From Trissonchulus latispiculum (Eukaryota; Nematoda; Enoplea; Enoplida; Ironidae), in the NCBI GenBank assembly GCA_030248195.1, contig JASAND010016564.1, positions 1 to 64,000 of the forward strand: DNA of 64,000 bases. The letters are read 5' to 3'. Made by a program: the position numbers and the translations under genes. Below are positions 1-60,464 of the stretch, in pieces (position 1 is the first letter of the stretch; each line of letters starts with the position of its first letter). Below the pieces are notes generated by a model. The model was not told the DNA's origin. It was given only the letters and a program-made list of their open reading frames with translations, and made no database searches.

Positions 1-1065
1 AATTTGGATAATGCTTCTTTAGCAGATAAATTGGAGTTTGTCTCTCAGCATTTTCGCATTGTCGCAACACGCGGGGGTTCAGAACATTCCCCTCCGCGGG
101 TTCAGCAGGTTTCCCCTGCGCAATTGCGGCGAATGGCGCAGCACGATCATCTAGTTGAAGATTCTGACGTTTTTGCTCCGGGGTTAGCTCGGGTGAGGTC
201 ATGCTCACCCCCTCCCCCATCCTCCCCCTCTTCACTTGATCCTGAAACTATTGAAACCTTGCGAGATTTGAATTTGTCTAGTAGCCGGGGTGAATTTTTA
301 GACCCTACAGCTTCGAAAGTTTTTTCTCCCAAAAAAGTTCGTTTTCTTTTTGCGGAACCTTTGTTTCATTTTGATCCTACAACAATGTTCCTTCCCCCTA
401 TTGGGAGCGATATTCCGATGTTTCCTTTTAATTTAGATGACTATCAGGTTTGGCTCCGGTGTCGACACGCTAACGAACGTTTTTGTTTGGCCTTTCCTGA
501 ACGTAACCCGGAGCCGTTCCAGGAGCGACCCTTGTCGGTTCCTACAAAAAGGGCTCTGGCTAATCCTTATGGGTCCCCCTCATTTAGGGACACTTTCGGA
601 TTCGAACCCCTTCTCCCCCCGGTGGGTCTTGTTCCCCCCTTTGCTCCGGAGCAGGAGCGTCATCTGGAGGATCGTGCTCGTTATTTGTGGCAGTTGGCTG
701 TATATCGTAGGGATTTTCCGGACACTTTACCGGAATCTGCTTTTTCTTCTTTACCCGATTTATTGTCTGCTATACATCGGCGTATGTACGTGATTACAAA
801 CCCAGACAAGCCACAATCGGTTCCGCATCCAGTACATCCGGCGGTAGCCGCACGATCTGTTCCGCCCACTGCTTTTCGACCAGTTTCGGTGGGATGTCAT
901 TCCAAATCGGCACGCAAACGCCTCCGTTTGGCAGCTATTCACCCAATGATTCATTATGCTCCGGATCTGTGGTATGAGATTGAGCTAGTATGGAATCGCA
1001 TTGAGCAGAGCCTTCAAAGATGGCGAGACGAAGGCTATCTCGACTCATCGGAGGAGTCATCATAA
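1..1065 (+). CDS. ORF1 of the retroelement, 5'-truncated by window edge
   Basis: Open from the first base, so the start lies upstream; about 354 codons are visible, stop TAA at 1063-1065. The product is Pro/Ser-rich with no signal peptide or membrane segment. The C-terminal third has a PHPVHP block (823-840), a basic KRLRL stretch, a P-x-x-HYAP segment and a helical WYEIELVWNRIEQSLQRW tail ending in acidic residues. The same order of blocks (PHPVHP, KR-H-R, YYDP, helix) recurs in ORF2, which suggests the two are diverged duplicates. I do not recognise a known domain; a structural or nucleic-acid-binding role is only a guess. It is followed by 169 bp of T-rich spacer before ORF2. Confidence 0.6.
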   Translation, partial: NLDNASLADKLEFVSQHFRIVATRGGSEHSPPRVQQVSPAQLRRMAQHDHLVEDSDVFAPGLARVRSCSPPPPSSPSSLDPETIETLRDLNLSSSRGEFLDPTASKVFSPKKVRFLFAEPLFHFDPTTMFLPPIGSDIPMFPFNLDDYQVWLRCRHANERFCLAFPERNPEPFQERPLSVPTKRALANPYGSPSFRDTFGFEPLLPPVGLVPPFAPEQERHLEDRARYLWQLAVYRRDFPDTLPESAFSSLPDLLSAIHRRMYVITNPDKPQSVPHPVHPAVAARSVPPTAFRPVSVGCHSKSARKRLRLAAIHPMIHYAPDLWYEIELVWNRIEQSLQRWRDEGYLDSSEESS

Positions 1066-1234
1066 ATTCTTTTCCTCTTTCTTGTGGTTTTTGTTATATT
1101 CTCTCCTTTTTGCATTTTAGATTACTTCATTCTTCCTTTTGTACGCCCTGTCTTCTTTTCTCTTTCTGCTTGGTTTTTAGGTTAGTTTTGTTTCATTCAT
1201 TTTTTCTCATTTAATTAGAATTGTGTCTTTCTTT

Positions 1235-2266
1235 ATGGCAGAAAAGATTTCCCCCTCTTCTGATGAGGATGACTATGTCGTTCGAAGCTATCAAGTTGTT
1301 CGATCTGAGCCATCAGAACCTGTGGGTAACCCGGTTACGTATGAAGATTTCGCCCGGATCGCTAGTTCTATGCAGTTACAGGAAATTCCTCCTCCTACGT
1401 CTCAACAGTCAGTGGGAAGAGCGGGCCTAGATTTTTCTTTTCAGGGAGCTTCGGGCGGGAGTCCTAAAAAGCCTAAAGTGCAGTCAAAAAAGTCCAGGAA
1501 AAGGCAGGGTCGCCCCTTTACTTATGCACATTTTGATCAAATTCCTCAAAATATAAATTTGGGGGCTGCAAGTTCTTCTTTACTGGACGAACAGGAAGAT
1601 ATTTCGGTTTCATCGTTTGTTCTGCCTTCGGGGGCGTCGGGTATCCATGCTAGCGACCTCGCCGCAATGGAAACTTTGTTTTCGGATTTACCATATGATA
1701 ACCCGCAAACTGCAGAGGAGGTGGCTATAACGTCACAGCGTTTTCAACTCTTGCAAGAATATGCGCGTTTTCGTCAACACATGTCAACTCATACGCACGA
1801 CATGCAACGTGTCGCCGCCTCTCCTCAGCAGTTGCTTCAGCAACATATTCGGCGCCTCGAGGCGGCTGATCGGGCTCGACAACCGAAATATCTTCCTCAT
1901 CCGGTTCATCCTTTGATGCTTCCTAGAATTGCAGAGACTCTTATTTTAATGGCGGAACCACTTTCTCCCGTAGCTTCTTCTCATAAGCGACACCGTATAG
2001 TCATGTCTCCCCCTACTGTTTATTATGATCCGATTATGCCTTTCAACGATCAATTTCTTGAGTTGTGTCGACTTAAGGCAGCTATGGTTCGTATGCTAGA
2101 ATCGGCGCCTCCGGTTCTTTCGATGGCACATCATGATCCCTGCCGTCATTATTTTTCTGCTCCGATTCGATACCTTCCAAATTCTTTTCACAATTCTAGT
2201 TTTCTGCCTCGTTTTACTGAATATAATTCTTTATTTCAGGTGGCCACAGGTCTTGATTTTCTGTAA
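1235..2266 (+). CDS. ORF2 of the retroelement, ORF1-related unknown protein
   Basis: 343 codons from the ATG at 1235; the frame is open a few codons further, but only to a GTG, so I chose the ATG. The N-terminus is acidic (SSDEDDY). A Lys/Arg cluster around residues 75-95 (KKPKVQSKKSRKRQGR) looks like a nuclear localisation or nucleic-acid-binding patch. A glutamine-rich helical stretch precedes PHPVHP (1895-1912), then a KRHR cluster and a YYDP block matching ORF1 in order. TYEDF and TYAHF segments recur within the protein. No enzyme motif is recognised. A strong pyrimidine-rich acceptor-like site (TTGGTTTTTAG, about 1172-1182) lies upstream, compatible with a spliced subgenomic mRNA; that is inference. 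Confidence 0.6.
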   Translation: MAEKISPSSDEDDYVVRSYQVVRSEPSEPVGNPVTYEDFARIASSMQLQEIPPPTSQQSVGRAGLDFSFQGASGGSPKKPKVQSKKSRKRQGRPFTYAHFDQIPQNINLGAASSSLLDEQEDISVSSFVLPSGASGIHASDLAAMETLFSDLPYDNPQTAEEVAITSQRFQLLQEYARFRQHMSTHTHDMQRVAASPQQLLQQHIRRLEAADRARQPKYLPHPVHPLMLPRIAETLILMAEPLSPVASSHKRHRIVMSPPTVYYDPIMPFNDQFLELCRLKAAMVRMLESAPPVLSMAHHDPCRHYFSAPIRYLPNSFHNSSFLPRFTEYNSLFQVATGLDFL

Positions 2267-2882
2267 TTTGCTTCTTGGTATTTTTCTACTTTATACTTGA
2301 CTTTTCTACTCTAATTTTCTTTTCTGATCACTAAAAATATTTTATTAAAAATTTCATCTTTGCTTCTAAATTTTGGTTTCCCTTTCCCTGTTTTCTTGAT
2401 ATTTTGTTCTGATTCCATATACACGTGGGCTGTCCCACTATCTTGCATAGCAGCGCTCCTAACATACATACGTACACATCTTAATGGGCTTTGTGTACGT
2501 AACATCTCAACAGGCCTTACATATGTATACACATTTCAATGGTCTTCTTTTCTACTTCACTACTGCACAACACGCCGCTCGTGTCATCACTATACGTATA
2601 CATTGCGGAGGAGCTCTACTCTCCTGTTTTGTTTTATGTTTGCACTTATTGTTTAGGTTCCTTTGGGCTCCTTCTGGTGCTGGTTCTGCTTTCCTGTCCT
2701 TTTGGCCTGGTAACAAAATTCTGCTGGATCATTTTCACAGGTCGTTTCCTTCTTAGCTAGATTCTTCTTTTACTTTTGATGGGATTTTGATGTAAAATTG
2801 TTTTAATTTTCATTTCTTAGTTTTCTGAGAAAATTTTGGTGTTTTCTTGAGTTTAAATTTAACGTTGACCTTTCTGCGAAAA
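2267..2882 (+). other. T-rich inter-ORF spacer of the retroelement
   Basis: About 615 bp strongly T-biased on the + strand without a convincing ORF; the short ORFs in it have no protein-like composition. It contains acceptor-like sites such as TTTCAG at the end of ORF2 and TTTTCACAG near 2740, just ahead of ORF3. The same U-rich texture separates ORF1 from ORF2 and follows ORF4, which fits splice acceptors of alternatively spliced RNAs, but no transcript evidence is available here. Confidence 0.4.
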
Positions 2883-5117
2883 ATGTCTCGTAAGACTTCA
2901 AAAAATGATTCTGATGTTGTGAAACGTTCTGTGCGCGCTGTACGTACGCAATTGGAAAATGTTGGGGGTAACTGGCGTGATTTGCAGCCTCAAAGTGGGG
3001 CGGCTGTCGCTCAGTCGTCTGAAGAGGACAGACCGGAACCTTTAGAGCTTCCGGAGGATTTTGGGGGTGATGCTATCCCGTTCATCTCGCGTGATACTCT
3101 TTTGAAAAATCTGTCAGAACACCCCCCAGAATTTTTTACTTTCCGCGATCAAATTGATCATTCTCAGTACTCGGCATACATTCGCCATATTTCTCAGAAA
3201 ACGGGGTTTCCCCATTCTTTAGCAAAGGCCACTACTGTAGTTACATCAATCGAGCAGCTGATCCGGTCTGTCCCTCTTTGGGTTGAGGCTGCTGAGAAGG
3301 CGGGTTTTTTGGCATGGGATCTGGAAGGGACATCGGCCAGAGCTTTTATGGGGCTTCCTCCCCAGCGTACCCTCTCCCTGATTCAAATTGCTGTCCCTTA
3401 CCCGGAAAAACTGCATTTGTTTCGCTCTCAGCTTGATCAAGTCCATCCGACAAATCCGAAACAGGACCCTATTTCGGTGGGTATCTATTTGATCCCACTG
3501 TACGTGTTATTTTTTCAATATCCCTCTTGGGAATATTTTCAGTATTTGTTAGCCCCCCTTTTCTACAACATTTCCTACCCCCTGTTAGGCTTGAACCCTC
3601 TGGCCGATGTCCGGCGCTTGTTAGGGGCTTTGGGCATTGATGCCCGCCATTCTGCCACAGATCTTGCGTATCTGGGGCGCCGGGTCATTGCGCGTCTTTC
3701 GGATCATCCTATGCAGCAGTGGTCTCCAGTTGATACCAGAGGCCCGTATCCGTGGCGCGATGAGCATAACCAGCAGATTCCTCCACCGTCGCGCAAACGT
3801 GTGGATATTCCACTTTCATGGTATCAGAAAGAAATTTTGCAGTATCCACAAAACATGTGTAAGGCAGCCTCGTGCAGGGGCCTTCACCCGTTTCCAACAT
3901 TGTCGGAACTGCGTTATGGGGCAACAGATGTCCGGGATGTTATCCTGGCAGTGCAGCGATACATCCACTTCGATCAGGATTTTGGAGTTTCCGAATTTCA
4001 GTGGCTACGGACTTATAAGGCCCTTACTGTTTGTTCAAGCCCTGATACCATTAAGTGCCTCAGGAACTGTTTGGGGGAATCTGTTCAACCAGCATCAGTG
4101 ACGAAATCAGAAATGGAACAGGACCAGCCTGGGACATCGCAGGCAACCAAATCGGTGTCGGCTAAGTCTTCCAAATACGATTTGACTACCACGGGTAAAT
4201 TTACCCCACCTTCTCTTCTTCCGGGGGTCTATGCTTTGTCATATCTCCCAGATCCGTCGCTTGTTCCGGGCGCAACTCCTACTACTATCTGGAAGCCAAT
4301 GCTTATTTCGCGTCCGGAGCGCCCGCCTACACAGCCCATGCCTCATCATGATTGGACGGCATATGCATTGTGGGTCTCAGCTTACTCGAGACCAACGCCT
4401 ACGAGACTGCGTAGCGACAGCTCTGAGTCCATTCCTAGTCGTTCTTCTAGGGCAACTAGGGCTGCGGCGAGCGCGGCGGCGGATCAGGAAGAAGAGGAGG
4501 CTGCATTTGAACAGCAGGAGGAACCAGAAGGTATTGTGGTGGACACGAGCGCAGTAAAGCGAGCACGTTTGGCAGGATCCCTTGACCAGGAGGTCGCTCT
4601 TCTACAACGGCTGCCGGCAGCTGACGCGGTCACGGCAAATTTGTCCATCGGTGCAGAAGAGGTAGTAGATAATAGTGGGTCCACGGAGGCTTCGTTGGGA
4701 TTCCGGTCACCGCCTGGGCCGAGGGTGGAAGTGAGGGGGGTCGACCCCGCCTTCTCGTCCTCGCCTGGGGCTCCTACCACCGTGTTCGGGGCGGACCCCG
4801 CCGGTGTGGAGTCAGGTGATTCGGTTTCCCATACGCCCTCCGGTCCGGCGCATATACTCGTTCGGGGGCTGCGCGTTCTCGCTCCCCCCGGGGTCGTTTT
4901 CTTTCTCAGCCCAGTAGCCATCAGGGCATTAGACGTGGTGTCGGGCGCGGTGATTTCTCGGCTCTTGATACAAATAGGCCAGTTACTCGTCAGCATCAGG
5001 CGCGTTTGGCGCAACAGGACGTTTCTTCAGGGATTGAAATCGATACGACGCCCTCTGCGGCAGATCAGGCGTTTCTTTCAGGTGATTCTGGCCAACAACC
5101 ATCTCCGTCTACGGTGA
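2883..5117 (+). CDS. ORF3: protein with RNase D/WRN-like DEDDy 3'-5' exonuclease domain
   Basis: 744 codons from the ATG at 2883 (the frame is open 12 codons further without ATG). Residues about 125-360 match the three Exo motifs of the DnaQ-fold RNase D/WRN family: Exo I AWDLEG (D146, E148) followed by LSLIQIAVP; Exo II LNPLADVRRLL (D242); Exo III LRYGATDVRDV (Y345, D349), the Y-x3-D of the DEDDy subclass. All five expected metal-binding/catalytic positions are present, so activity on nucleic-acid 3' ends is plausible. The spacing between Exo I and Exo II is long. Residues about 400-560 are low complexity with an acidic EEEE run; the tail is Arg-rich. The last 300 nt overlap ORF4 in the -1 frame. 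Domain assignment is by motif reading only. Confidence 0.65.
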   Translation: MSRKTSKNDSDVVKRSVRAVRTQLENVGGNWRDLQPQSGAAVAQSSEEDRPEPLELPEDFGGDAIPFISRDTLLKNLSEHPPEFFTFRDQIDHSQYSAYIRHISQKTGFPHSLAKATTVVTSIEQLIRSVPLWVEAAEKAGFLAWDLEGTSARAFMGLPPQRTLSLIQIAVPYPEKLHLFRSQLDQVHPTNPKQDPISVGIYLIPLYVLFFQYPSWEYFQYLLAPLFYNISYPLLGLNPLADVRRLLGALGIDARHSATDLAYLGRRVIARLSDHPMQQWSPVDTRGPYPWRDEHNQQIPPPSRKRVDIPLSWYQKEILQYPQNMCKAASCRGLHPFPTLSELRYGATDVRDVILAVQRYIHFDQDFGVSEFQWLRTYKALTVCSSPDTIKCLRNCLGESVQPASVTKSEMEQDQPGTSQATKSVSAKSSKYDLTTTGKFTPPSLLPGVYALSYLPDPSLVPGATPTTIWKPMLISRPERPPTQPMPHHDWTAYALWVSAYSRPTPTRLRSDSSESIPSRSSRATRAAASAAADQEEEEAAFEQQEEPEGIVVDTSAVKRARLAGSLDQEVALLQRLPAADAVTANLSIGAEEVVDNSGSTEASLGFRSPPGPRVEVRGVDPAFSSSPGAPTTVFGADPAGVESGDSVSHTPSGPAHILVRGLRVLAPPGVVFFLSPVAIRALDVVSGAVISRLLIQIGQLLVSIRRVWRNRTFLQGLKSIRRPLRQIRRFFQVILANNHLRLR
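4820..5117 (+). other. -1 frame overlap of ORF3 and ORF4
   Basis: ORF4's frame opens after a TGA at 4817-4819 and overlaps ORF3 until 5117. ORF4 has no ATG before 5675, so it needs splicing, frameshifting or non-AUG initiation. I found no canonical X XXY YYZ slippery heptamer in the ORF3 frame. The acceptor ending at 4909 is the best visible solution. Confidence 0.55.
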
Positions 5118-8053
5118 TAGTGACTTTGGAGGAGCCTACCGAACTTTTAGGAACCGTGGACTCTTCTGTGCAAAGTTCGGGCACTGTTCCGATAAGTTCG
5201 GGCACTGTTCCGATAAGCTCGGGCACTGTTCCGATAGGTTCGGGCACTGTTCCGATAAGTTCGGGCACTGTCCCGTCTAGTTCGGGCACTGCTCCGACAA
5301 GTTCGGGCACTGCTCCGACAAGTTCGAGCACCGCTCCGACAAGTTCGGGCACTGTCCCGCCAAGTTCGGGCTCTGCCCCGATTAGTTCGGGCTCTGTCCC
5401 GATTAGTTCGGGCTCTGTTCCGGTTAGTTCGGGGTCTGTCCCGATCAGTTCGGGGACGTTTCCAACAAATTCGGGTCTCAGTGCGACAAGTTCGGGATCA
5501 CCACAGGTAAGTTCGGGCCCTTCAACATCTGGGCCTGCAACGACGTCTGGCATCTCTGCGGCGGTGGAAACGGCACAGCAAGGTTTGGGTGAACCACAGG
5601 TGGTTGTTTACAGTGTTGCGGCGGATCCACAGTATACGTTGACGCTAATTCCCGCTCCCACAAATGAGTTGGGAATGATTTTGTTGGCTGACTCATCTCC
5701 GGCGGGCTTTGGATTTTTCTCTTTTGACTGTACACCTTTCAGTGCTCCTGGAGTCTCTCGCCCGGGGTTGTGTCCTCCGATTTTAATCGAGGGTGCTAAT
5801 GTTGAACCTCCGCGCTTGCAGCAAGGCCCTCCGATGCAAACAGTTGCACAGTTAGCTCCTATTTGGTCTCGAGCTTTGCAGGAGGCGGGCTCTTCTGCTC
5901 GTCTTCCTCAACCGATTCAGGGGCTGGGCGCTATTCCGCACAGGGAGAGGCTTAATTTTGTGGATACGTTTTGGCAGCGTGTCCCTCCAGTGGGTACTCC
6001 GCTACAACTGGAATTGATTCCACTGTTGGGGCTTTCTGCAGCTGAGCTGCAAGAACGAGTTGGCCATCCTCCGCCTTTCTATGCTTTCGAGGTTGCGTAC
6101 CACACAGTGGGACAGGGAGACACCCAGGTGTTGGATCTGTTAAGGGTCCTCTTCCCGGGTGCCTTCGCTCCATCCCCTGTGCCAGGGGTGGAACATCCCA
6201 CGTTTGGTATGAATTTGTCGGCGGATCGTTCGCTATTTCAGTTGTCGCCTGCTCTACCTGGCGTATCGGCTTGGGAAGCGGGGATTCCATCTCGGTCCAC
6301 TTCTGTGGGCCCATTGGGGCATCAGCGACCCGCTGAGCCGGCGTCTCGGCCTGTTTTAATGGACGCCCAATGCCAAATTTCTTTTGCTACCACTCCACCT
6401 GTGGTTTCTGTTCAGCAAGTACCGCCGTTTCAGCCTCCGCAACCGATGCTACATCCACCAGCGGCGACCATTCAGTGGCCGGCCACTCATGTTTTGAACC
6501 CGGTCTATCACCGTGTCGTGACTGATTTGGTCTTGGCTGATTCCGACGTAGAGGGGTCTTCTACCTACTTGCATGCGGATTTGCCGAAGTACTTTGTCGA
6601 TCCTGAAGACACGGTCTTTGAAGGAAATCCGCCGGTTGCCAATCCTCGGGAAAGGCCACAGTTTTTGAACGGGGCTGACCCGTATTGTATCTACCCGGGG
6701 GAGGACCGGTATGGTCTCCCATCTGATAAGAAGGCGGGCACCCCACCTTTCTTGGGACCTCAGCCTTTAGATCCTTGGGTTCGTCAATCAGTGGCCGAGC
6801 TTCTGGCGGTTTCGGATCTTGCTGTTCCGTTTCGCCAGTATGCAGATCGGTATTGGCAATACGCGGAGCTTCCACCAGTTCAGGCTATTTCTGGCTGTTC
6901 GGCTTTAAATCCGTATTTTGTACATACGATTGCCTACTGGGACGATTGGCTTCGTGGGCAGGCAGCCCCATTTGCTGTTCCATGTACAGCGCTTGACGAG
7001 TATCTTGAGGAACTGAACCAGCTAATTCCGGGGGCGCATGTGTCGTTTGAAACGCACCCCACCCCTGTCCCTCTGGGGTACGACCAACTGCGTATCCAAC
7101 CCGAGCGTCCTGATTTTTGGCAGGCCACCTTGCGGTTGCCCCCTTTGGCTTGGGAAGGGGTCTTGGTTTTTCCGGGGATCGAGTTAGTTGGGAAAGCTGC
7201 GCTGGAATCGTGTGCCAAAGTGGCCGCAATCGCCCAGCTTTACCCGTTTTTCTATATTTATCCATCTTTGTTTCGGTTTCAGCCCCTGCGTAAAATGATT
7301 GAGACTTGGACGAAAAAATCAAAGTTTTTAGAGAAGAAGGTTCAGGCGGTTATTGAGGAGTCGCTTGCCCACGAAGCCATGCAGTCTGATCAGGCCAAAG
7401 ACTACGGCCCGGTGGTTCCATTTTTTGGGGAACATATGGTGGGATCTAATATGCATTATATTCCGGAAACCAATGAGCCGGGACACCGACCCTATTTAAA
7501 AGTCTATGGGCATGAACATCGTTTTTCTGAGGGTGGTTATCAACATCGTAAGACCGACTATTGGTTTTGTTTGCCCGAGCCTGCGCGCTACCTGGCCTCA
7601 CGGGGTTGCCCGTTTCAGGCTCTACAAGGTGCGAAGCATTATACCAGGGGCTGGTTCCACCATTCAGTTCCGTTTCGCCGTTTTTGGGAACATCCGAAAA
7701 TCCATGTGCGAGCATTTGTCATGCTCGAGGTAATTCGTGCAAAGGCTCAGGTTTGCCCATCGTATCGTGAATGGTTTGCATCGACGGGGGTTCGCATCAT
7801 TGCTGAGGCTTCTAATAATGAGTATTGGGGCATTGGCAAGTCACAAGCCATGCTCCAAAATATGGGGCCTCAGGATTACGCACATCTGTCGTGTTTGAAT
7901 CCTACTCCTGCGGCCCCCCACCAAAATTGGATGGGCAAACTGCACATGGTCTTGCGGAGCGAACTGTTTTCGGATCTACCAAATCTGGTTACGATAATGC
8001 GAGAAGACCACCGCCAACAGGAGGTCAGGGCGGCCGAGGCTAAGAACGTTTAG
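4910..8053 (+). CDS. ORF4: Ser-repeat protein with C-terminal NADAR (YbiA-like) domain
   Basis: The frame is open from 4820 to the stop TAG at 8051-8053, over 1,000 codons, but the first in-frame ATG is 5675. I start the feature at 4910 because a strong acceptor (TTTTCTTTCTCAG) ends at 4909 and Arg/Ser-rich coding-like sequence follows at once, suggesting a spliced-in start. Order: basic N-terminus; 21-bp-unit SSGTVPI repeats (5174-5530); Pro-rich middle; a Trp/Tyr/Pro-rich globular part; a helical region near 7290-7400; then at about 7494-7900 a NADAR-like block with FQALQGAKHY and EASNNEYWGIGK. NADAR proteins act on ADP-ribose-type compounds as N-glycosidases in known members. The acidic residue before the WG is Glu here, where many members have Asp. 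Function in the element is unknown. Confidence 0.6.
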   Translation, partial: PSSHQGIRRGVGRGDFSALDTNRPVTRQHQARLAQQDVSSGIEIDTTPSAADQAFLSGDSGQQPSPSTVIVTLEEPTELLGTVDSSVQSSGTVPISSGTVPISSGTVPIGSGTVPISSGTVPSSSGTAPTSSGTAPTSSSTAPTSSGTVPPSSGSAPISSGSVPISSGSVPVSSGSVPISSGTFPTNSGLSATSSGSPQVSSGPSTSGPATTSGISAAVETAQQGLGEPQVVVYSVAADPQYTLTLIPAPTNELGMILLADSSPAGFGFFSFDCTPFSAPGVSRPGLCPPILIEGANVEPPRLQQGPPMQTVAQLAPIWSRALQEAGSSARLPQPIQGLGAIPHRERLNFVDTFWQRVPPVGTPLQLELIPLLGLSAAELQERVGHPPPFYAFEVAYHTVGQGDTQVLDLLRVLFPGAFAPSPVPGVEHPTFGMNLSADRSLFQLSPALPGVSAWEAGIPSRSTSVGPLGHQRPAEPASRPVLMDAQCQISFATTPPVVSVQQVPPFQPPQPMLHPPAATIQWPATHVLNPVYHRVVTDLVLADSDVEGSSTYLHADLPKYFVDPEDTVFEGNPPVANPRERPQFLNGADPYCIYPGEDRYGLPSDKKAGTPPFLGPQPLDPWVRQSVAELLAVSDLAVPFRQYADRYWQYAELPPVQAISGCSALNPYFVHTIAYWDDWLRGQAAPFAVPCTALDEYLEELNQLIPGAHVSFETHPTPVPLGYDQLRIQPERPDFWQATLRLPPLAWEGVLVFPGIELVGKAALESCAKVAAIAQLYPFFYIYPSLFRFQPLRKMIETWTKKSKFLEKKVQAVIEESLAHEAMQSDQAKDYGPVVPFFGEHMVGSNMHYIPETNEPGHRPYLKVYGHEHRFSEGGYQHRKTDYWFCLPEPARYLASRGCPFQALQGAKHYTRGWFHHSVPFRRFWEHPKIHVRAFVMLEVIRAKAQVCPSYREWFASTGVRIIAEASNNEYWGIGKSQAMLQNMGPQDYAHLSCLNPTPAAPHQNWMGKLHMVLRSELFSDLPNLVTIMREDHRQQEVRAAEAKNV
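5174..5530 (+). repeat. 21-bp tandem repeat encoding SSGTVPI-type heptads
   Basis: About 17 units of 21 bp (consensus AGTTCGGGCACTGTTCCGAT plus one base) inside ORF4, giving a Ser/Thr/Gly/Pro-rich mucin-like tract. Units at the 5' end are nearly identical and decay toward the 3' end, where variants such as SSGSVPI and SSGTAPT form sub-blocks, indicating recent expansion by slippage. Confidence 0.9.
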
Positions 8054-10097
8054 GGAGCGTTGTTGTGCGTTGTTGTTGTTGTTTGCAGCCCCGTGTATAT
8101 GGAAATTTTCTTTAAAATTTTACTAGTGCCCGAGCTGATTTTCTTATAAATTTTGTTTATCTTTTCTCGAGTATTTCACTTTTCCATGATGATCTTAAGG
8201 GTCTTTCTCTTTGATTAAATTCCATTCTGTGAAATTTCCTGTTGTGTTGCAGATTTTCGTCTCGTTTCTTGTTTGCTCGGGCACATTGACATTTTGCGTT
8301 TTTCTACTCACCTTCTGGCTAAAGGGGTTCTGGGGTGGGCGAGTCGCCTTGTTGACCTAAGACTGGGACACGGAGTGAATCGTCCCCCCCCCAGACTCTT
8401 ATTTCTTACCTTTCTACATTTGACTAGTATCTAACAGTTTCGAGTTTTCGCCGTTGTGTGGGTCTCCAAAGGTCGTTACCTAAAACTGGGTCGTCTTTGG
8501 GGCGCTCACACCGCCGCGATCATGCTGCAGTTGAGGGGCTTTTGTGATGTACTTTGTTTGTCTTTGCATTTATTCCATGGCATTTTTTCTTCGAGTCTTT
8601 AATTTTTGTGCTTTATGCTTACTACTTTAATTTTTGTTTGTGTTTAGGTGATGGTATTCTTGTGTAACCGGTCCCCATACCCCCATTCTGCGCCAGGCGT
8701 GCCCCACGACGGATGCTGAACGGGAGCTGGACTCTGTTGTTGCTGTTCTGGTTCATCTGGACTCTCACCCAGACTGTAACCCCGGTATTCCAGACGGTGA
8801 ACTGTTTCTGTTGTGGCCACTATTTGAATTGGATCTGACTGCAAGGAGGTGGCTCTATTTGCCTCCGCTATTTTCGGGACTGCTATCTGGTCCTTTGCTT
8901 TTCTGTTGGGGCCTGATTTTTCCATCTTTGGTTTGGGCCACTGATCCTGGCCTTGGTTTTTCTGTGGGGTCTTGTTTGGCCCTTTGACTGCTTACCGGGT
9001 CTTGACTATTTCCCGGTTATCTTTTTGGCCTCCCTGCTGGTTTGGCCAACTTTCTATGATGGGTCTGGCCGTTTCTAAGTCTGCTTTCCGGTGTGACCAT
9101 TTGTGGCCGATGGTCCTGTTTGGTTTGATCTTTGTCTGGTCCGGGTCCTTCCATCTGGACTTTTCTTTTTGTCGGGTCTGTTCCCGGTGTCTGCTGGAAC
9201 TGTCCTGATTCTCCCATTATGAAGTTGTGGATTGTGTGCACGCCTTGGACGCTTGGTTCTCCCCTTGTTGTGTATTTGTTGTGAATTTTCATTCCATTTT
9301 TGTGTTTGTCTTTGTGCAGTATAATAAACATGGGGAGGGATTTGATAATCTATGTTGTTCATATAGGGAGGGTTCCAGTCTATTTGTTCCCCAGTTTCTT
9401 TTTGTTTCGGGCGCTCCCTATTATCTGTGCCTATTTATCTGGTAGCTATTCACTGGTAGCTCGTTTTTCTTGTTGGCCATGTTTTGCCATTTACCAGTTT
9501 GCCTTATTGTTTTGCCTTTAATTTTTGTTTTCATATTTCTACTGATTTTTGTGTTATCCTCTATGCATAATAAACCGCTAGCAAGTATTTGTATTTGTTG
9601 CTTTCTTATAGGACCTTAGTTGGATTTCTTTCGTGGGGTTTGTATCTGTTGGGATGGGTCCCCCTGTGGGTAGTGTCCCCGTTGTGCTCTGTTCTTTCGC
9701 GTGGGGGTCCATACGGGTGTCTAGTTGTATTGCTTTCTAAAATGTGTGCAGTTGTTTCTCAAAAGTTGTCAAAAGTTGTCAATTGTTTCGTTTCGTTTAG
9801 TCGTTTGTTTCGTATATCTGTTTCGTCTGTCCAAAGCTGGTTTAGTGTTTAGTTTCGGTCACAGCCGACATGGTTTTACCCAGTTAAGTCCGAAGTGTCA
9901 GTCCGGACTCGTCTGTGAGCCGCGTAGTTCGCAGGCAAGTGGGGATCGTCTGGCTCCATTTTTACTTTAGCTAGTTCTAACAGTCTGTTTTATCTCTAAA
10001 ATTACTACTCGGAGCTCCAAAATTAATGTAACCCAGTTTTACCATTGTCTAATCTTTGGTGGCACTCGTATTGGTCGCCGCGCGGGGGGCCGGCGGC
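8054..10097 (+). other. 2-kb T-rich 3' non-coding region of the retroelement
   Basis: No ATG-initiated ORF of protein-like composition is seen. One open stretch, 8652-8987 (111 codons, no ATG, preceded by an acceptor-like TTTGTGTTTAG), encodes a Trp/Leu-rich hydrophobic sequence that could be an exon of a membrane protein or a chance ORF. The rest is T/G-rich with homopolymer runs (a C run near 8386). Confidence 0.4.
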
Positions 10098-10110
10098 GGA
10101 AAAGAGGGGG
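10098..10110 (+). promoter_or_regulatory. polypurine tract
   Basis: GGAAAAGAGGGGG lies 5 bp upstream of the TG of the LTR, the position where the plus-strand primer of reverse-transcribing elements is found. Confidence 0.65.
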
Positions 10111-10316
10111 TATTTTGTGGGATATTACCCATTGGGGTACTGATAGCTAGCTGCGCAGCAGCGCAGCACTGAAAATTATATGTTGTGCTAGCTTCACACA
10201 TGCGACGTAAAGTATACTTTATTTGATGAAATTAGACGACTCTGAACTATTTTGACAATTGTCTCATGAATGATAAAAGTGATTTCTTTTGGGCTAGCTA
10301 CGCGAGTAGCACAAAG

Positions 10317-10326
10317 TATATATAAG
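10317..10326 (+). promoter_or_regulatory. TATA box in LTR
   Basis: TATATATAAG within the U3-like part of the LTR; transcription would start about 25-30 bp downstream. Confidence 0.55.
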
Positions 10327-10564
10327 CGAGAAAAGTGCAAGTCTAAAGTAGTTGTGGTTGCAATCGTTGTTCTGGTCGGCGCGTCTATTGGGTTGGGGGT
10401 TCGATTTGTCTTGGGTAGGTGCCTATTGGACCAGGTTTAGGGTGCAGGGAGAGAGTAACGTCCTCCCCTCTGCCTCGTTTATTCTATTGTCGTGCTCTCT
10501 GATAATTTTGTAGTAATTTCGTATATCTATTGAAGAATTAGTACGAATAGTTGATGTCTGATTT

Positions 10565-10570
10565 AATAAA
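10565..10570 (+). terminator. polyadenylation signal in LTR
   Basis: AATAAA about 240 bp after the TATA box, in the order expected for R/U5 of a complete LTR. Confidence 0.5.
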
Positions 10571-10623
10571 GTCTAGCGGTACTCAAGTTTATTAGACGTA
10601 GGGACGGTCGCTTAGGGCCCACA

Positions 10624-11646
10624 GATAATTATTCTCTATCTATATCTGCTAACTTAGTACTCTCGCTTCTTCTCTCAACTGGCTAGGCTTAGATGTCACA
10701 CACTGAACTCTTACTGGCAATCTTTACTGAAGTCCGACATTAGTTTATTACAGAGGTACACACATAGTACTTCACACTTCCAAAGCATAGAAGTGACAAG
10801 AGATCCGTCTGACTTAGTTCATTACTCTCGAAATGATTTCTTAATTTTGAATTTTATTGCTATCTATTAAGCATCTAAAAACTTTTGTGAGTATGCTTGA
10901 AAATGACCAAATACTCTCCAAATTTAATCTTCAAATATATATAAGGTGAATGTCTTATCCTTCATCTACCATAAGCACCATCATATGTGGTAAACACAAT
11001 TTCAATTTATCGAAAAGAATTTATAACTGTTTCATAAATAACGCTGTCATATTGGCAAATAGAACTTTGCTTCGCCCAGGATAATTAATAATATTGATTA
11101 ATAATCTTTATTGCTGAGATTGCATCTGACCGTGGGGGTTTGCGCAAATTTTAATATTAATAGATTTCGACGATCCCACTAAGCCACATCAGATAAAATG
11201 TATATCTGCTGATATACTGTCAATTGTGTTCACAGCAAGCCTTAAGTGCTCTGCTGCCGCGAACTCAGTCAGCAACGGAAGAGCTCTCTCATCATTTTAC
11301 TCAATAAATACAAAGAATTTTGTGAATCATGTTTGTTTGCGCTTTTCTTGGCATTTCCTTAGAGAACTGAACCTTGTAAAAGTTTTAAGACAACTGTCCC
11401 AATAAACCAAGAATATGTTGAAATGCACCCATGCAAAATTTAAGCGATTAGGTTCGGGAGAAAAACGGAACGTCTCTGAGTTTATTGGAAAAGTTGGAGA
11501 GGCCAGTGTGCTCATGCATATGTCGTTCTTTTTATTTACGTGATTTTTCCAGCACCCAGCACTCTTTGTATTGGTTTTTCCCAAGATTTATTTTATTTTA
11601 GGACCATGCTAGTACTTCAGATGAAATTTTCGGGTGTTCTCCTGGT
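10624..11646. other. intergenic, no gene recognised
   Basis: AT-rich sequence with many stops in all frames. No repeat structure or RNA gene was recognised. Confidence 0.4.
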
Positions 11647-32873: not shown

Positions 32874-33265
32874 ACTTACAACTCCAGCCAATGCATCTTT
32901 CTGGATAACGAAAGTTTTGGAAGACAGGGCGGATACATTTTAAATAGACATTTGTATGACATTCATGTGACCGTTGCGTTTATTTATTGAATTATATACT
33001 GTCATCCATCCCATTTCATGACATTTATATTAAATGTAAGTTATACTTTAGTAAATGTGTAATCGCAATGTGTAGACTGCAATGTATAGCTTCTCTCGCC
33101 GAAAGCACAAGTTGTTGTTAAGGGCTGATGGCCATACTGCTGCTTAGACCGAAGCGTCTCTGGCAGTCAAACACATATTTTTAACCACAACCATATTTCT
33201 AATGGACTAGAAAAAGATTGTACATTAGCGGCATCCTTGAGGTGGTCGATTGCACAGCTTTCTCC
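32874..33265. other. intergenic after copy B
   Basis: AT-rich 3' flank of copy B; no gene or repeat recognised before the TTAA element at 33266. Confidence 0.35.
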
Positions 33266-34188
33266 TTAAGCTGCTGGTATCCTTGAGTGCAGTGCTTTTG
33301 TAGTGATTTTTCGAAACGCCATAGCTTTCGCAATTTTGGGAGTTGCAATGAGCTTTATACATCGTTTTAAAGCTTGTAATCTGTACAGTAACGTGAGCTT
33401 GCGAAACTAGCAAAATTAGCAAAAAACTAGCAAAAATTTTCTGACATGCTGATATTGGACAGGCTGAATATAGGCCAAAAATTTTTGAACATCGATTTCT
33501 CAAAACTGTAGAATCGGCCAAAATTTCTTTTTGTGCCATGATATGAAGGACATGTGGGCCGAGGGACATTTTTTGGATTTGGCTCTAAAAGTCTCAATAC
33601 TCCAGAAAAACCGGCATATGTGCGGTCGCGGTGACACGAATTTTCGCAATTTTGCATTCAATTTTCTCGCAACTGGAGTCGTTTTAGCTCAAACCAAGAG
33701 AAATGACTTTCCGCAATAGTGCGAGTTTTCATCCAGCCAGAAATCACGCGAATCCATTGGGTTGTTTTTGAGAAATGGTTGTTTAAGCCAGAATAATCCC
33801 AGTTTTGCCGAAATCTTTTTTCGGCCAAATCTCTAGCTTAAAGCAACGAACTCCAGCGAATAGGCATTGATAAAACGTGTAATTGGTATAAAACGTGGAA
33901 ATATTTATTGAGTATAGATAAGCCAAAATTGTCTGTAAGATTTGGCAGTAATTTTGAAAAAAACTGATTTCGAAAATGGCCATTTTTTGACCAAAAAATT
34001 GTTTTTGGCTTGTACTGCCTTAACCACTAAAAATAGCTCAAAGGTTGTAAAAGCAAAAATATTCATTTTGGTGCCCTATTTCCAGCTATAACAACCAATC
34101 CGGTGTATCAACTGCATACTGAGAGAATAATGGCAAAAACCATCTTATCTTTGCACCTAAAAATGCGGGACTGGTCCCAGAATGTTAA
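33266..34188 (+). mobile_element. TTAA-bounded (piggyBac-like) non-autonomous element, right end altered
   Basis: Starts TTAAGCTGCTGGTATCC and runs parallel to the element at 49840 along its length (shared blocks around GCTTGCGAAACTAGCAAAAT, TAGAATCGGCC, TGGTCCCAGAATGTTAA). The right TIR seen in the other copies is not recognisable after 34188. It has no coding capacity. Confidence 0.55.
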
Positions 34189-35359
34189 GGGCTGCTACTT
34201 AACAGATGTGTTCTGCACAAACATACCCAGGGACTTTTTTTAGTTGCCCCGACTGCTGTTTTCTAGCTAAAGTAATCGCTTAACAAATTTGGAAAAAGTA
34301 GGCAAAATACAGGTTGCACATGTAGCAAACATGTATGTAGCAAACAAACCACAGTCTACTTGCTTGCTTGCTTAATTTTTACTATTGTGTAGTTTCAATG
34401 GGTTTTTATCAGAAGGCTTTTGCTGCATTTGTATTTTTCGATCATTTATTTTATTTGAAAAATAATGAAAAATTCCACAAATTTGACTGAGTTGATTTTT
34501 ATCAAGCTGAATTCAAGCTCAACTGGTTTAAACATATAAAAATCGCAAAAATGTTTAATTCTTGGCAAAGATTTAGTCTTAGCGCATCATTAATCAAAAG
34601 TGGGTCACGTGGGTCAAAACGTTTCCCGCGGGTCACGGGTGTTTGCCAAGCGGCTAGGGTCAAAGGTCTGTGGGTCGCGGGTCGGGTGCGGTACAAAAAA
34701 GTTTACACACTTCCATCTCTGGGTTTCTCTGTTTTGCAATGCGTAACGGCGCTCCAATCAGAAGAGGCGAATGTCACACTATTTGAGGTAGATGGAGCGC
34801 CAAAACAGTCTAAGGTTGGCTTCCTTTTTTTCAATAACAGAAAACTCTCTATCACAACATCTTAGTCCATCACAGCATATCAATACTTAGTGTGGCTTTC
34901 TATAATATTTTGCCTGAGACGATTTCATTAAAGGTCTTGTTGTCTGTCTAGTAACCGCACCTCAGGTCGCTATAGCTGCGGAAGGTGTGTTTTGTCTCGG
35001 GTTTGTCTAACTCACCTCTCTGATAATGTATATTTGTGTTAATGTATTCTGTATGCCCTTTGTCTAAATAGAATGGTCATTGGCATTTACATATAAAAGC
35101 ACTTTTAAATGTACCTGGTGAAATATAACTACTGTACTAAAGTCTATAGATAACTAAATTGCGATGACGATCTAGATGATCTTAATGCTAGTCATTGTCT
35201 TCGCTCCCGGCTGAAACTGATTCATTGTTGACGCTAGCGCACACGATGGCGGCAGAGCCAACGACATTGAATCGTGAACCAGTTAGGTCACGTTTATAAA
35301 ATCGTGCAGGAAACGTGTAGAAAATTCTGTTGGCTCTATAATAATAATTATTATTATTA

Positions 35360-49329: not shown

Positions 49330-49839
49330 CTTAATGGAAAGGCTAAGGCGTTAAAATCCCATTTGTACGTGGAAATGGAGATAAAGATGACATTCAAAAC
49401 ATAATTCATGTATTATTTGAAATATTCAAGTTCAACATTCCATGACTAACTTCTTACCAATTCTTGTGTCTGTTTTGAAGTCCAAGTCTTGTGACCAATT
49501 AAAAACAAATGGACTTTATTTTGAACCCATGAAGTAACGAAAGTTTGAAGTAACGAACATTTACTTCTTCTCTTAGACCCCTTTTTCTTTAAATATTAGA
49601 AAAGGCGGATTGGAAGATCATAGGTTGTCCAAAAACTGCTTACCTATAATAACGATAGCCACTATATTGATTCACAAACTAAATGAGATAATTTAAATGT
49701 GCTTAGTTTACCAATAAACTCATAGTATTTCAACATTTTAGACAAAATTGGCTCCGTTTATTCGCTTAGTCAGTTTAATTTGCACGTGAGCTGAATTGAT
49801 GAACAGTTTTTAACCGTATCTGCATTAAACAGATTGGCC
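49330..49839. other. 3' flank of protease gene
   Basis: Includes TTAGACCCCTTTTTCTTTAA at 49573-49592, resembling one terminus of the foldback element at 52803. Otherwise no feature seen. Confidence 0.35.
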
Positions 49840-51386
49840 TTAAGGTACTGGTATCCTTTTGTGCAGTGTTTTTGTGTTGATTTTTTGAAACGCTATAACT
49901 TTCGCAATTTTGGGAGTTAGCAAGAGATTTCTACATCGTTTTAAAGCTTATAATTTGTATATTAACATGAGCTTACGAAACTAGCAAAATTGGCAAGAAA
50001 ATAGCAAAAATTTTCCGATATGCTGACATCTGACAGACTGAATGTAGACCAAAAACGTTTGAACATCGGTTTCTCAAAACTGTAGAATCGGCCAAAACTT
50101 CGTCTTGTGCCATGATATGAAGGACATGTAGGCCGAGGGACATTTTTTTGGATTTGGCTCAACAAGTCTCAACACTCCAGAAAATCCGGCAAATGCGCGA
50201 CGACACGAAATTTAGCAACTTTCTAGTCAGTTTTCTCACAACTGCAGATGTTTTAGCTCAAACCAAGAAAAATGTCCCTCCGCAATAGTGCGAATTTTCA
50301 ATCAGGTAAAAATCACGCGAATCCATTGTGTAGTTTCTGTGAAATCGATGATCAAAACAAAATAATCGCAATTTAGCCAAAATGGTTTTTCGGCGAATTC
50401 TCTAGCTTAAAGCAACGAATTCCAGCGAATAGGTATTGATAAAATGCGTAATTGGACGGTGTATCGCTTAAGTATAAATAAGCCGAAATTGTGCGTAAGA
50501 TTTGGCAGTAATTTTGAAAAAAACTGATTTCTTCAAAAATGGCCATTTTTTGACCACAAAAATGGTTTTTGGCTTATACTGCCTTAACCACTAGCCCTTG
50601 TAAAAACCCTTGTAAAAGCAAGAATGTTCATTTTGGTGTCCTCTTTCCAGCCATAACAACCAATCCGGTGTGAAGTTTGACTCTACTGATCTTAGTAAAA
50701 ACGTTGCTGTCTGACTTTATTCCCTAGGGTAAGACTAAATTACAGGTAACAACAGTGGTGTGTGACGCTGGAGCAATGTTCGGCCTGACCAACTAGAAAC
50801 CGATAGAAAGATTACAACGGTTTATTGTACTTTAAACAAGAACTTGACGACAAAATTAGAGCAAACATTAATTTTAAGGACGAGCATAAACTTTATAGAA
50901 ACACAAAACACTGACAAAACGCCCGGCCGGAGCCGACTATGCGACAGAAGTTACCTAACCAAAACTCACACCAATCTCCCCGATTCGGACCCAACCACTT
51001 GCTGTCAATCTTACACCCACACTAACCTCTGAACAACCCAACATGGAGGAATACAATTATTAGCTATCGAACCTACGAATTTAGACAAGAGTGATGCGAA
51101 ACGATTGAGCGTTCAACAAATGAGATGTTATTTTCACTTAGGCTTAGAATCTCGAGTATAATTTATATCTTTCCTGCCGGTGCTAACTTCACACCGGTGT
51201 AGCGACCATGTACTGAGAGAATAAGGGCAAAAACCAAAAGTTTCATATCTTTACACCTAAAAATCCGGGACTGGTCCCAGAATGTTAAAGAGCACGAAAA
51301 TAATGTATTTGGAAAGTTTCATCCACTTTCATGAAGAATTGAAGCTTGTAGGGTCGACTTTACACAAAGCGATACCAGCACCTTAA
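49840..51386. mobile_element. TTAA-bounded (piggyBac-like) non-autonomous element with nested solo LTR
   Basis: TIRs: left TTAAGGTACTGGTATCCTTT and right (other strand) TTAAGGTGCTGGTATCGCTT, each starting with TTAA, the piggyBac target. The interior matches the elements at 33266 and 51845. A 525-bp LTR plus 4-bp duplication interrupts it at 50669-51197; without these it is about 1,018 bp. No transposase. Confidence 0.7.
50669..51193. mobile_element. solo LTR inserted in TTAA element
   Basis: 525 bp with 9-bp perfect inverted ends TGTGAAGTT/AACTTCACA and a CCGG target duplication on both sides (50665-50668, 51194-51197). The uninterrupted homologous site at about 34093-34120 (CCAATCCGGTGTATC...) shows the empty state, confirming the insertion. 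Confidence 0.82.
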
Positions 51387-52990: not shown

Positions 52991-53554
52991 ATTTTATTCC
53001 GCTAACTGTCTAGCTAGCTAGCTAAAAATTTCGTAATTTTTGAGCACACTGTAAAAAATCGTGAAAATTAAAGTTGTTCGAAACAGTAGAAATTTTAGCT
53101 CATTCGAAAGCTTCTTACAAGCTGAACAACTTTTCTTCTTGACACAAGTCCCAAAAGTTGCACGAACTTCTCGCTAGCGCTCGTCAAATGCAAAGCTATG
53201 CCTACTACTAGTACCTTAACCGAATAAAAAATTTCTTGCACTTGTACTTCCACTGCTTAGAGTGACTAACTGATGGAAGAATGTACAGTTATTCTGTACC
53301 TATCAAGCTGTGAACGTAAAATAATGAAAAATTCGGCGATTCCCAAGAAGTGGTCGATGCCTCTTCTTCAAAATTGAAAACAACCGGTCCATGTTTAGCT
53401 GGTTTTGTTTTGTAAGAAAACCAAACTGTTGATCTAGTTTCATAAAATGGGCGGAATGACTTTTTCTTGCATCTTTCCAAAAGTTAAGAAAGTTAGGGAG
53501 TTTCAAAACCACTGCACAATGGAACAATCTCAGTTAGGTAAAGTCAGTCTGTGT

Positions 53555-53755
53555 AACGTTATTCGATTGGGTCATTTGGGTCTGGGTCAGGAAAATTCTT
53601 GGGTCAGTTGGGTCTGGGTCACGAAGACGTTTGCAGCATTTTGGTCTGGGTCACTATATTTTAATATTTTATGGGTCACCTTGGGTCTGGGTCAAATTTG
53701 CGTTTAGGTCAAGTGGGTCATGGGTCACAAAAAGTGACCCAGTTTCGATCCCTGA
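53555..53755. mobile_element. GGGTCTGGGTCA-array element
   Basis: Array of TTGGGTCTGGGTCA motifs ending GTGACCCAGTTTCGATCCCT, whose complement (AGGGATCGAAACTGGGTCAC) has a hAT-like terminus. The left terminus is not defined. A related motif occurs at 34598-34690. Confidence 0.4.
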
Positions 53756-54994
53756 TACGCAACTTAAAACTCTAACGATCATACTGTGCTACTATCTAAA
53801 TGCAAAGTTTCCACACCGATGGATTAGTTCAGGACAGGACAAAATGTTCAATGATCTATACATTTGTGAGCAATTTTGAGCAAAAAGTGGCTTCCCCGAA
53901 CTTTGAAAATTAGTAGAAAATTAGCGACCCTACAGTAAATAACCTCGCTTAGATATTAATACTTTAACTAGTCCAGACTAGATTTACTCAAAGTTGTGGC
54001 CGATTTGCTCTTATACAACTTTCAAACTTTTGGCAGCAGAAAAATTTTCTGAACTTTTTCATTTTCCTATATAATTTAACACATGTCGGGGTCACATATG
54101 GACGGCGACTGGGAATGATAGGAAAAGTTTTGCAGTAAACGCACTTGTCTTGTTTTACCGACCCATGGGAAATAGAAAATATGTGAAAATGAGAACACTC
54201 TGAGATGGTAAAAAATCGCGACCTTCCCCGTTAATAATTCAAAACATTAATAAATTTACCAAAACAACTTATCTTCACAAACAAAAAATTGTTCCAATTA
54301 TATAATGCAGTCCAGAAATTAAGTAACTGCATAAACCTGCAAAGAAGAAAATTTTCCTGTAGAGCTATTAGCCCATCACATATATTTATTTGATTCAGTA
54401 TATTAAATATTATTCAGCGAGAAATCACATTAATCCAAACCAAAAATCATCACATATATTAAATGGACAGCATTATATTGCGTGAACATCCATGCTCGTC
54501 GTCTAATATTTGCTTCCACAAGGCAATACACATCTGGGATTGGAATTTTTTCTCAAAAACACAGATTGAACTAGTTATGACTTCTCAAAAATGTGGTTGA
54601 ACTACTACCCCCTGGGGTGATACTCGTTCCCAAAAAGGAGATTTAAAATTGCTACCAAAATGAGAATAAATATGGCACCCAATTTCAAGTCAGCACCCAA
54701 AAATCAATGATTTGACCTCTCAGTCCTAGTATCAACAAAACAGCTCCCAAAACCGAGAGCCAAAAAGTCTCTCAAGACAGGAGACAAATCGGCTCCCTAA
54801 TATATGAGCCAAAAGGTCTCCCAACATTTCGAAAATAGCACCGAACCTATGCTCAATTGTGCTGACTATTACTGTTGCACTTGAATTGCACAGCAACTCA
54901 ACATTACTCGGATAGTCATGAAATCTTTTTTATCGAGGACACAACGAAGTCTTAAATATCAAATATTGTTGTAAATACTTCTTAGTCTTAGTTC
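53756..54994. other. intergenic, no gene recognised
   Basis: AT-rich; no ORF of protein-like composition and no repeat recognised. Confidence 0.35.
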
Positions 54995-60395: not shown

Positions 60396-60464
60396 TCACC
60401 AACTGATTAGTGACAATTATTCAGGAATTAGTGACTGGACAAATGTACCGATATGGTTTAAGGG

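Follow-up and report, generated by a model that had tools for sequence, protein, structure and literature searches.

An exonuclease-NADAR fusion gene in the 3' half of a probable Ty3/Gypsy-type retrotransposon of the nematode Trissonchulus latispiculum

The window analysed here covers the initial 64 kb of contig C11273 (JASAND010016564.1) of the nematode Trissonchulus latispiculum and opens with a block of accessory genes that is followed by a long terminal repeat (LTR). Positions 1-10776 very probably represent the 3' half of an LTR retrotransposon of the Ty3/Gypsy type, about 20 kb in length, whose gag-pol half was lost at the contig end. The block encodes a predicted protein in which a DEDDy-type exonuclease domain and a NADAR domain are joined. 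The contig starts at window base 1 and, because it begins inside the first accessory open reading frame (ORF1), five codons in, the pol gene of the window copy is out of view. A first-pass annotation of the window had noted correctly that the ORFs of this block include none of the standard retroelement enzymes. Relatives of the element were taken from the same genome (733.8 Mb in 21,732 contigs). The numbers of matches are lower bounds, since 40 of 586 candidates were scored for the LTR, 37 of 37 for ORF1 and 40 each of 116, 700 and 300 in the further searches.

Long frames on the plus strand, to which all coordinates of the element refer, occupy window positions 1-8053, where the GC content is mostly above that of the remainder. 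At least four accessory ORFs had been noted at the first pass, and long frames are indeed present at 1-1065, 1223-2266, 2847-5117 and 5006-8053. The last two are a single frameshifted gene, and therefore three accessory genes are present rather than four. In contig C6745 the corresponding copy (L010:2484-7856) spans both as one frame of 1790 codons. In the window, the first half of the gene extends from its first ATG at 2883 to 5117 with a frame break before about 5.1 kb, and the second half, at 5006-8053, is in a different frame. To judge from these frames, the window copy is frameshifted between its two domains. The region between the domains contains a 21-bp tandem repeat (5110-5550), which would encode a linker of 7-residue units rich in S, T and P; contig C9189 stops near this repeat of the element.

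The NADAR domain is located at the C-terminus of the fusion protein (7415-7966). The catalytic glutamate is encoded at 7529-7531, a lysine seven residues later at 7550-7552 and the YbiA-type glutamate at 7805-7807; the roles of these residues have been described (PMC11543638). With the window sequence, the Pfam family PF08719 gave E-values of 2.8e-4 to 2.6e-5 and 25 bits, the curated cut-off being 35.1. All six aligned members were matched by PF08719 with a best E-value of 2.1e-7, and the three residues, E142, K149 and E234 in the columns of alignment A2, were invariant in all six. The domain predicted by these matches is real, though divergent. When the window NADAR region was compared with 5.8 billion protein sequences, no match was found among 6,811 candidates, and a scan of IMG/VR with the fusion alignment gave 26 pattern matches and no relative.

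The exonuclease domain is found at 3306-3972, with the Exo I motif D-x-E at 3318-3326, the Exo II aspartate at 3606-3608, an extra conserved aspartate at 3660-3662 and the Exo III motif Y-x3-D at 3915-3929. D-x-E, the Exo II aspartate and Y-x3-D were kept in five of six aligned rows, namely the window and four close members. The domain was aligned by hhalign over 204 columns to a family of the same genome that is recognised by the exonuclease family PF01612 (probability 88%, E 3e-6); in a repeat the score was 44.5, compared to a maximum of 24.4 in 60 column-shuffled controls. The same motifs of the window, L010 and L030 also lined up with those of the Pfam-recognised loci L129 and L133. Both assignments of the first-pass annotation, one exonuclease-like and one NADAR-like domain, are therefore upheld by the match to the recognised exonuclease family and by the PF08719 matches with their invariant residues. 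From the predicted sequences, a single protein contains both the exonuclease and the NADAR domain and retains its catalytic residues.

Several observations speak against such an enzyme. The NADAR score of the window protein is below the Pfam cut-off, and the exonuclease family of the window had no direct match in Pfam or the PDB and none to the RNase D of E. coli. A distant relative, L009, retains the exonuclease region without the D-x-E motif, and several further copies of the gene have broken frames. L009 lies on the minus strand of C6745 (22000-31999) and is a diverged relative of the accessory block, with an exonuclease-like ORF whose frame is broken. A scan for RNase D relatives, in which 80 of 202 loci were kept and those listed were all enterobacterial, was not used, nor were the single-sequence AlphaFold models of both domains, which had a predicted local distance difference test score (pLDDT) of about 35.

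The selection on the gene was determined by the method of Nei and Gojobori as the ratio of nonsynonymous to synonymous changes (dN/dS) between copies with an open aligned stretch; the pairs are non-independent and broken copies were excluded. For the exonuclease, the ratio was 0.08-0.24 in 10 pairs, with nine at 0.08-0.12, and for the NADAR domain 0.07-0.15 in 15 pairs, with 14 at 0.07-0.12. Altogether, 23 of the 25 pairs were at 0.07-0.12, with dS ranging from 0.1 to 1.2. Between the window and L010, the differences at the first, second and third codon positions were 18, 9 and 57 in the exonuclease and 22, 5 and 81 in the NADAR domain. Alignment A1 excludes L029 and L032, whose frames are broken, as well as the fragment L036, and L034 and L035 gave no match; alignment A2 excludes L024, L036, L037, L038 and L039 because of stops, frame breaks or fragments. 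L033, which has a frame break just 5' of the aligned stretch, and L031, with a 7-codon gap inside it, were kept. Decay is an unlikely explanation because dS reaches 1.2 while dN stays below 0.1. The codon pattern indicates that the exonuclease-NADAR protein is under strong purifying selection.

The 3' end of the element is marked by the polypurine tract GGAAAAGAGGGGG at 10098-10110, which is identical in L010, L011, L023 and L024. Five bases after it starts the 3' LTR (10116-10776, 661 bp, TGTGGG...TTCACA), whose ends were set by comparison with other copies and which contains TATATAA at 10319 and AATAAA at 10565. The first-pass annotation had recognised the tract and the start of the LTR but had ended the latter at 10623, whereas the shared sequence runs 153 bp further, to TTCACA at 10776. 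The flanking GATA-type duplication that it had expected is consequently not the target site; the window LTR is followed by CTTC. The repeat is multicopy, as a count of its copies in the genome was meant to reveal: at least 40 matches were scored out of 586 candidates, the window's own included. Four apparently solo LTRs had both flanks complete, and 4-bp duplications (CTAT, ATGT and GTAG) were seen at three of them; at the fourth, L007, a duplication was not clearly visible.

An LTR in C19264 (L002) was considered as the 5' LTR of the window element, being 95% identical and having the same CTTC flank. This pairing was left unproven because neither a leader nor a primer-binding site comes after the C19264 LTR. 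In C6745, L010 (38895-44480) and L011 (46437-51999) are inverted arms of 5.6 kb that are 92% identical, each holding internal sequence, an LTR and flanking repeat. The arms may have arisen by segmental duplication in inverted orientation or through the assembly, and the two LTR copies of C6745 are therefore possibly not independent insertions.

The gag-pol half was found in relatives of the window element. Contig C1881 has a 95% identical copy of ORF1 located 349 bp downstream of a pol frame of 1125 codons. In this frame, Pfam recognised RVT_1 at 274-428 (1.2e-27), RT_RNaseH at 491-624 (1.2e-33), H2C2 at 759-818 (1.1e-12) and rve at 835-931 (3.1e-15); reverse transcriptase, RNase H and integrase follow one another in one pol ORF in C1881 and not in the window. 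The pol is preceded by a gag-protease frame of 1608 codons with the CCHC knuckle CLHCGRRGHDPNNC. Its matches to gag-asp_proteas (2e-5) and RVP (1.6e-3) were both slightly below the Pfam cut-off, and no gag domain was matched in Pfam. The LTRs of C1881 are in direct orientation, the 5' LTR at 53204-53864 and the 3' LTR at 33638-34293, and the candidate primer-binding site TGGCGACCGTGA follows five bases past the 5' LTR. The element is 20,227 bp in all with an internal region of about 18.9 kb. A DNA virus or polinton with an LTR beside it by chance was dropped as an interpretation, because a Gypsy-type reverse transcriptase and integrase precede ORF1 in C1881. Another Gypsy pol, 40% identical to that of the element, was seen in the same contig (L020, 63360-73359), about 10-20 kb beyond the 5' LTR of the element.

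The distances between the parts recur from contig to contig. Of the 20 contigs that have both pol and ORF1 on one strand, 16 had them separated by 266-372 bp. ORF1 and NADAR were 6.2-6.4 kb apart in nine of the 11 contigs with both, and NADAR lay 2,062-2,109 bp from the LTR in all but one of 14 pairs, the exception being C4102 with 1,359 bp; the window is counted among the 11 and the 14. LTR and pol were 5.2 kb apart in two contigs, C17223 and C1881. The order in the relatives is LTR, gag/protease, pol, ORF1, ORF2, exonuclease-NADAR gene, about 2 kb of noncoding DNA and LTR. It was pieced together from several contigs, and C1881, the middle of which was unread, is the one that spans both LTRs. 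As the first-pass annotation had supposed, pol is found just to the left of ORF1 in these relatives, and an upstream LTR of this family, such as it proposed to look for, is present in C1881 together with gag-protease, reverse transcriptase, RNase H and integrase. The alternative that it had considered, conserved single-copy host genes, does not apply to the accessory ORFs, which are present in multiple copies and found repeatedly next to pol and LTR.

Some of the data do not fit an element of this structure. The window itself has one LTR and no pol, and in four of the 20 contigs the distance from pol to ORF1 was 2, 1,454, 2,095 and 4,805 bp. The LTRs of C1881 are 81.6% identical and their flanks differ (TGAG and TCCG), and this copy may therefore be old, recombinant or misassembled. 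Pol matches were scored in 45 contigs, and 25 of these were without an ORF1 match; among the 25 are C17223, C17526, C1656, C16740, C21466, C14952, C5825, C606 and C19922, in which the pol is 93-95% identical to that of C1881. The accessory cargo is not universal in the C1881-type pol family, and the contigs concerned may carry other genes, diverged ORFs or none in its place, or may end there.

A second exonuclease-NADAR family was detected in the same genome. The search with PF01612 gave 13 matches (36 of 36 candidates scored), and eight of the 12 loci fetched (L126-L133) matched the window NADAR in tblastn with E-values of 6.9e-7 to 8.7e-4. Both domains were above the Pfam cut-off in L129 (NADAR 1.9e-34, 119.7 bits; PF01612 1.2e-6) and in L133, located at C6677:75355 (NADAR 3.1e-32; exonuclease 2.3e-6), and the NADAR match of the broken L126 (2.1e-4) was below it. 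The NADAR domains of the two families were aligned by hhalign with a probability of 98% (E 1.5e-12), and L127-L132 are mutually 96.5-98.6% identical where they overlap. A diverged exonuclease-NADAR protein that Pfam recognises is multicopy in this genome. The L129 exonuclease-NADAR protein had no match among 7,996 scored from 5.8 billion protein sequences; its NADAR domain alone had one among 16, a NADAR protein of 162 residues.

Contig C8966 contains, in this order, a Gypsy-type integrase (rve 5.7e-14), a bZIP-like ORF (bZIP_2 2.1e-5), a kinase-like ORF (Pkinase 4e-19), the exonuclease-NADAR gene (L129) and a further kinase ORF (1.9e-24). The integrase is 31% identical to that of the C1881 pol. 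The linkage of the second family to an integrase on one strand was read in this one contig; in C4206 (L126) an integrase ORF is on the strand opposite to the exonuclease-NADAR gene. The same-strand genes of C8966 (L135, L129 and L136) possibly represent another long Gypsy lineage, one that carries kinase genes and transcription-factor-like ones.

The exonuclease-NADAR protein might be a counter-defence and clean-up enzyme with the nucleic acid of the element itself as its substrate, a role that we propose tentatively. The element would follow the usual cycle of transcription from its LTR, reverse transcription and integration, and its accessory proteins would be made from spliced or otherwise shortened RNAs. 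The NADAR part could then strip ADP-ribose that host enzymes place on guanine bases of the element RNA or complementary DNA (cDNA), and the exonuclease part could trim damaged or blocked 3' ends. NADAR proteins reverse guanine ADP-ribosylation (PMC11543638, PMC11125620), those of eukaryotic RNA viruses have been proposed to counter ADP-ribosylation by the host (PMC9503650), and a function in 3'-end processing was proposed for the DEDDy ORFs of bdelloid LTR elements (PMC5408684).

It is rather unlikely that the exonuclease of this element instead serves replication fidelity or 3'-end processing in the manner of the ExoN of large nidoviruses, which would aid the copying of an element of 20 kb, with the NADAR part for RNA or cDNA repair. 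The length of about 20.2 kb in C1881 and the intact DEDDy motifs would fit, but the exonuclease domain is located outside pol. To our knowledge, no reverse transcriptase uses a separate proofreading exonuclease. Among nidoviruses, proofreading by ExoN has been linked to the growth of the genome (PMC7968707), and those of nematodes, crustaceans and insects include viruses with NADAR domains (PMC9503650), which is consistent with a fidelity factor.

Quite improbable is a function of the protein mainly as a nucleic-acid-binding scaffold or a silencing antagonist of the Maelstrom/EXD1 kind, in which catalysis is dispensable. The L009 region without D-x-E and the participation of inactive DEDD proteins in the biogenesis of PIWI-interacting RNAs (PMC5408684) would suit a scaffold; the exonuclease motifs kept in five of six rows and the NADAR Glu, Lys and Glu invariant in six of six argue against it. 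That the ORFs belong to the host, or to another element, and lie by chance 5' of a solo LTR, as the single LTR of the window, its lack of pol and the 25 of 45 pol contigs without an ORF1 match might suggest, is refuted by the NADAR-to-LTR (13 of 14 pairs) and pol-to-ORF1 (16 of 20 contigs) distances, which recur between copies 70-95% identical, a divergence that also makes an assembly artefact of one locus unlikely.

A broader form of the proposed counter-defence role, which we consider doubtful, is that two long-diverged Gypsy-linked lineages carry a fusion of an exonuclease with a guanine de-ADP-ribosylase that shields the element's RNA or cDNA from an ADP-ribosylating defence of the host. 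If true, such a fusion would correspond, in a retrotransposon, to the DarT-NADAR antitoxin and would have a parallel in the ExoN and NADAR of nidoviruses; the ADP-ribosylation of nucleic acid would then be a eukaryotic defence against transposons. Retrotransposons seldom retain enzymes besides their copying machinery. Here, a two-domain enzyme is kept at a dN/dS of about 0.1 and recurs in a second family beside a 31%-identical Gypsy-type integrase. Its preservation and recurrence therefore allow a direct test of whether a mobile element must remove ADP-ribose from nucleic acid; if it must, base ADP-ribosylation would be implicated in transposon defence. This modification of bases occurs in shellfish. 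It is also known from the bacterial DarT and the butterfly pierisin.

The bdelloid rotifer elements Juno and Vesta are likewise LTR elements with an extra DEDDy exonuclease ORF besides gag and pol (PMC5408684); it is their ORF3 and is joined to a GDSL domain in one species. In the present element, the exonuclease shares a protein of about 1,700-1,800 residues with NADAR, and two more accessory ORFs are present. The Ectocarpus lineage Gypsy-12_Ec32 also combines a Gypsy element with a NADAR domain of the YbiA family (PMC12477816), whereas here NADAR forms the C-terminus of an accessory protein that is encoded separately, downstream of pol, and that also has the exonuclease. The fusion of both domains in an LTR element appears to be new; the DEDDy exonuclease and NADAR have each been published in LTR elements. 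The view of the first-pass annotation that the class was not described stands for the fusion, as far as found, and does not stand for its two components (PMC5408684, PMC12477816). No published exonuclease-NADAR fusion was found among the titles and abstract openings listed from the open-licence literature, an absence that is not proof.

Burro of planarians and Ogre of plants are Gypsy elements that are similarly over-long and have additional ORFs or domains (PMC6431247). Their accessory content is unlike that of the present element, and the internal region reaches 25 kb in Burro, compared to about 18.9 kb here. The annotation had also spoken of a giant retroelement. Giant retrotransposons have been defined by an internal region above 20 kb (PMC6431247), of which C1881, about 20.2 kb in all, falls narrowly short. 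The terminons, or Athena elements, of bdelloids are giant retroelements with DEDDy exonucleases among their many ORFs (PMC6431247); they have a Penelope-like reverse transcriptase and are attached to telomeres, whereas the relatives of the present element have LTRs and a Gypsy-type integrase. In the large RNA-based genomes of nidoviruses, ExoN and, for some of them, NADAR are known as well (PMC7968707, PMC9503650). Their replication system is unrelated to that of the present element and the likeness is one of gene content only. DEDDy members also occur in the Dada superfamily of DNA transposons.

The two other accessory ORFs have no known domain. The contig start truncates ORF1 (1-1065) at its 5' end, and the ATG sits 5 codons further left in C1881. 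ORF1 gave no Pfam match above the cut-off. Its DNA had 38 matches in 37 contigs, the window's own counted, and the protein of the homologue L027:2-1033 (minus strand) is 93% identical, with a dN/dS of 0.24 in this one pair. ORF2 (1223-2266), likewise without a known domain in Pfam, is weakly similar to ORF1 (23% over 121 residues, BLASTP E 1e-4); its homologue L010:874-1893 is 69% identical with a dN/dS of 0.31, also from one pair. No env-like Pfam match was found in the accessory ORFs. Between the fusion gene and the polypurine tract, a T-rich conserved stretch (8054-10097) without a coding signature is 93% identical to each of L010 and L023, and the differences between the window and L010 over 8054-10115 were without codon-phase bias.

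A scan of the window with Rfam gave no match. Further repeats were observed outside the element. At 60463-61605, an inverted repeat resembles a non-autonomous DNA transposon; its 141-bp arms are 96% complementary and separated by 861 bp. The direct repeats at 33264-34106 and 49838-50671 are 82-92% identical and also match DNA beside the LTRs of C6745, as another dispersed repeat family. Arrays of 61-bp and 20-bp tandem units were found between 39269 and 41323, at two places more than 1 kb apart.

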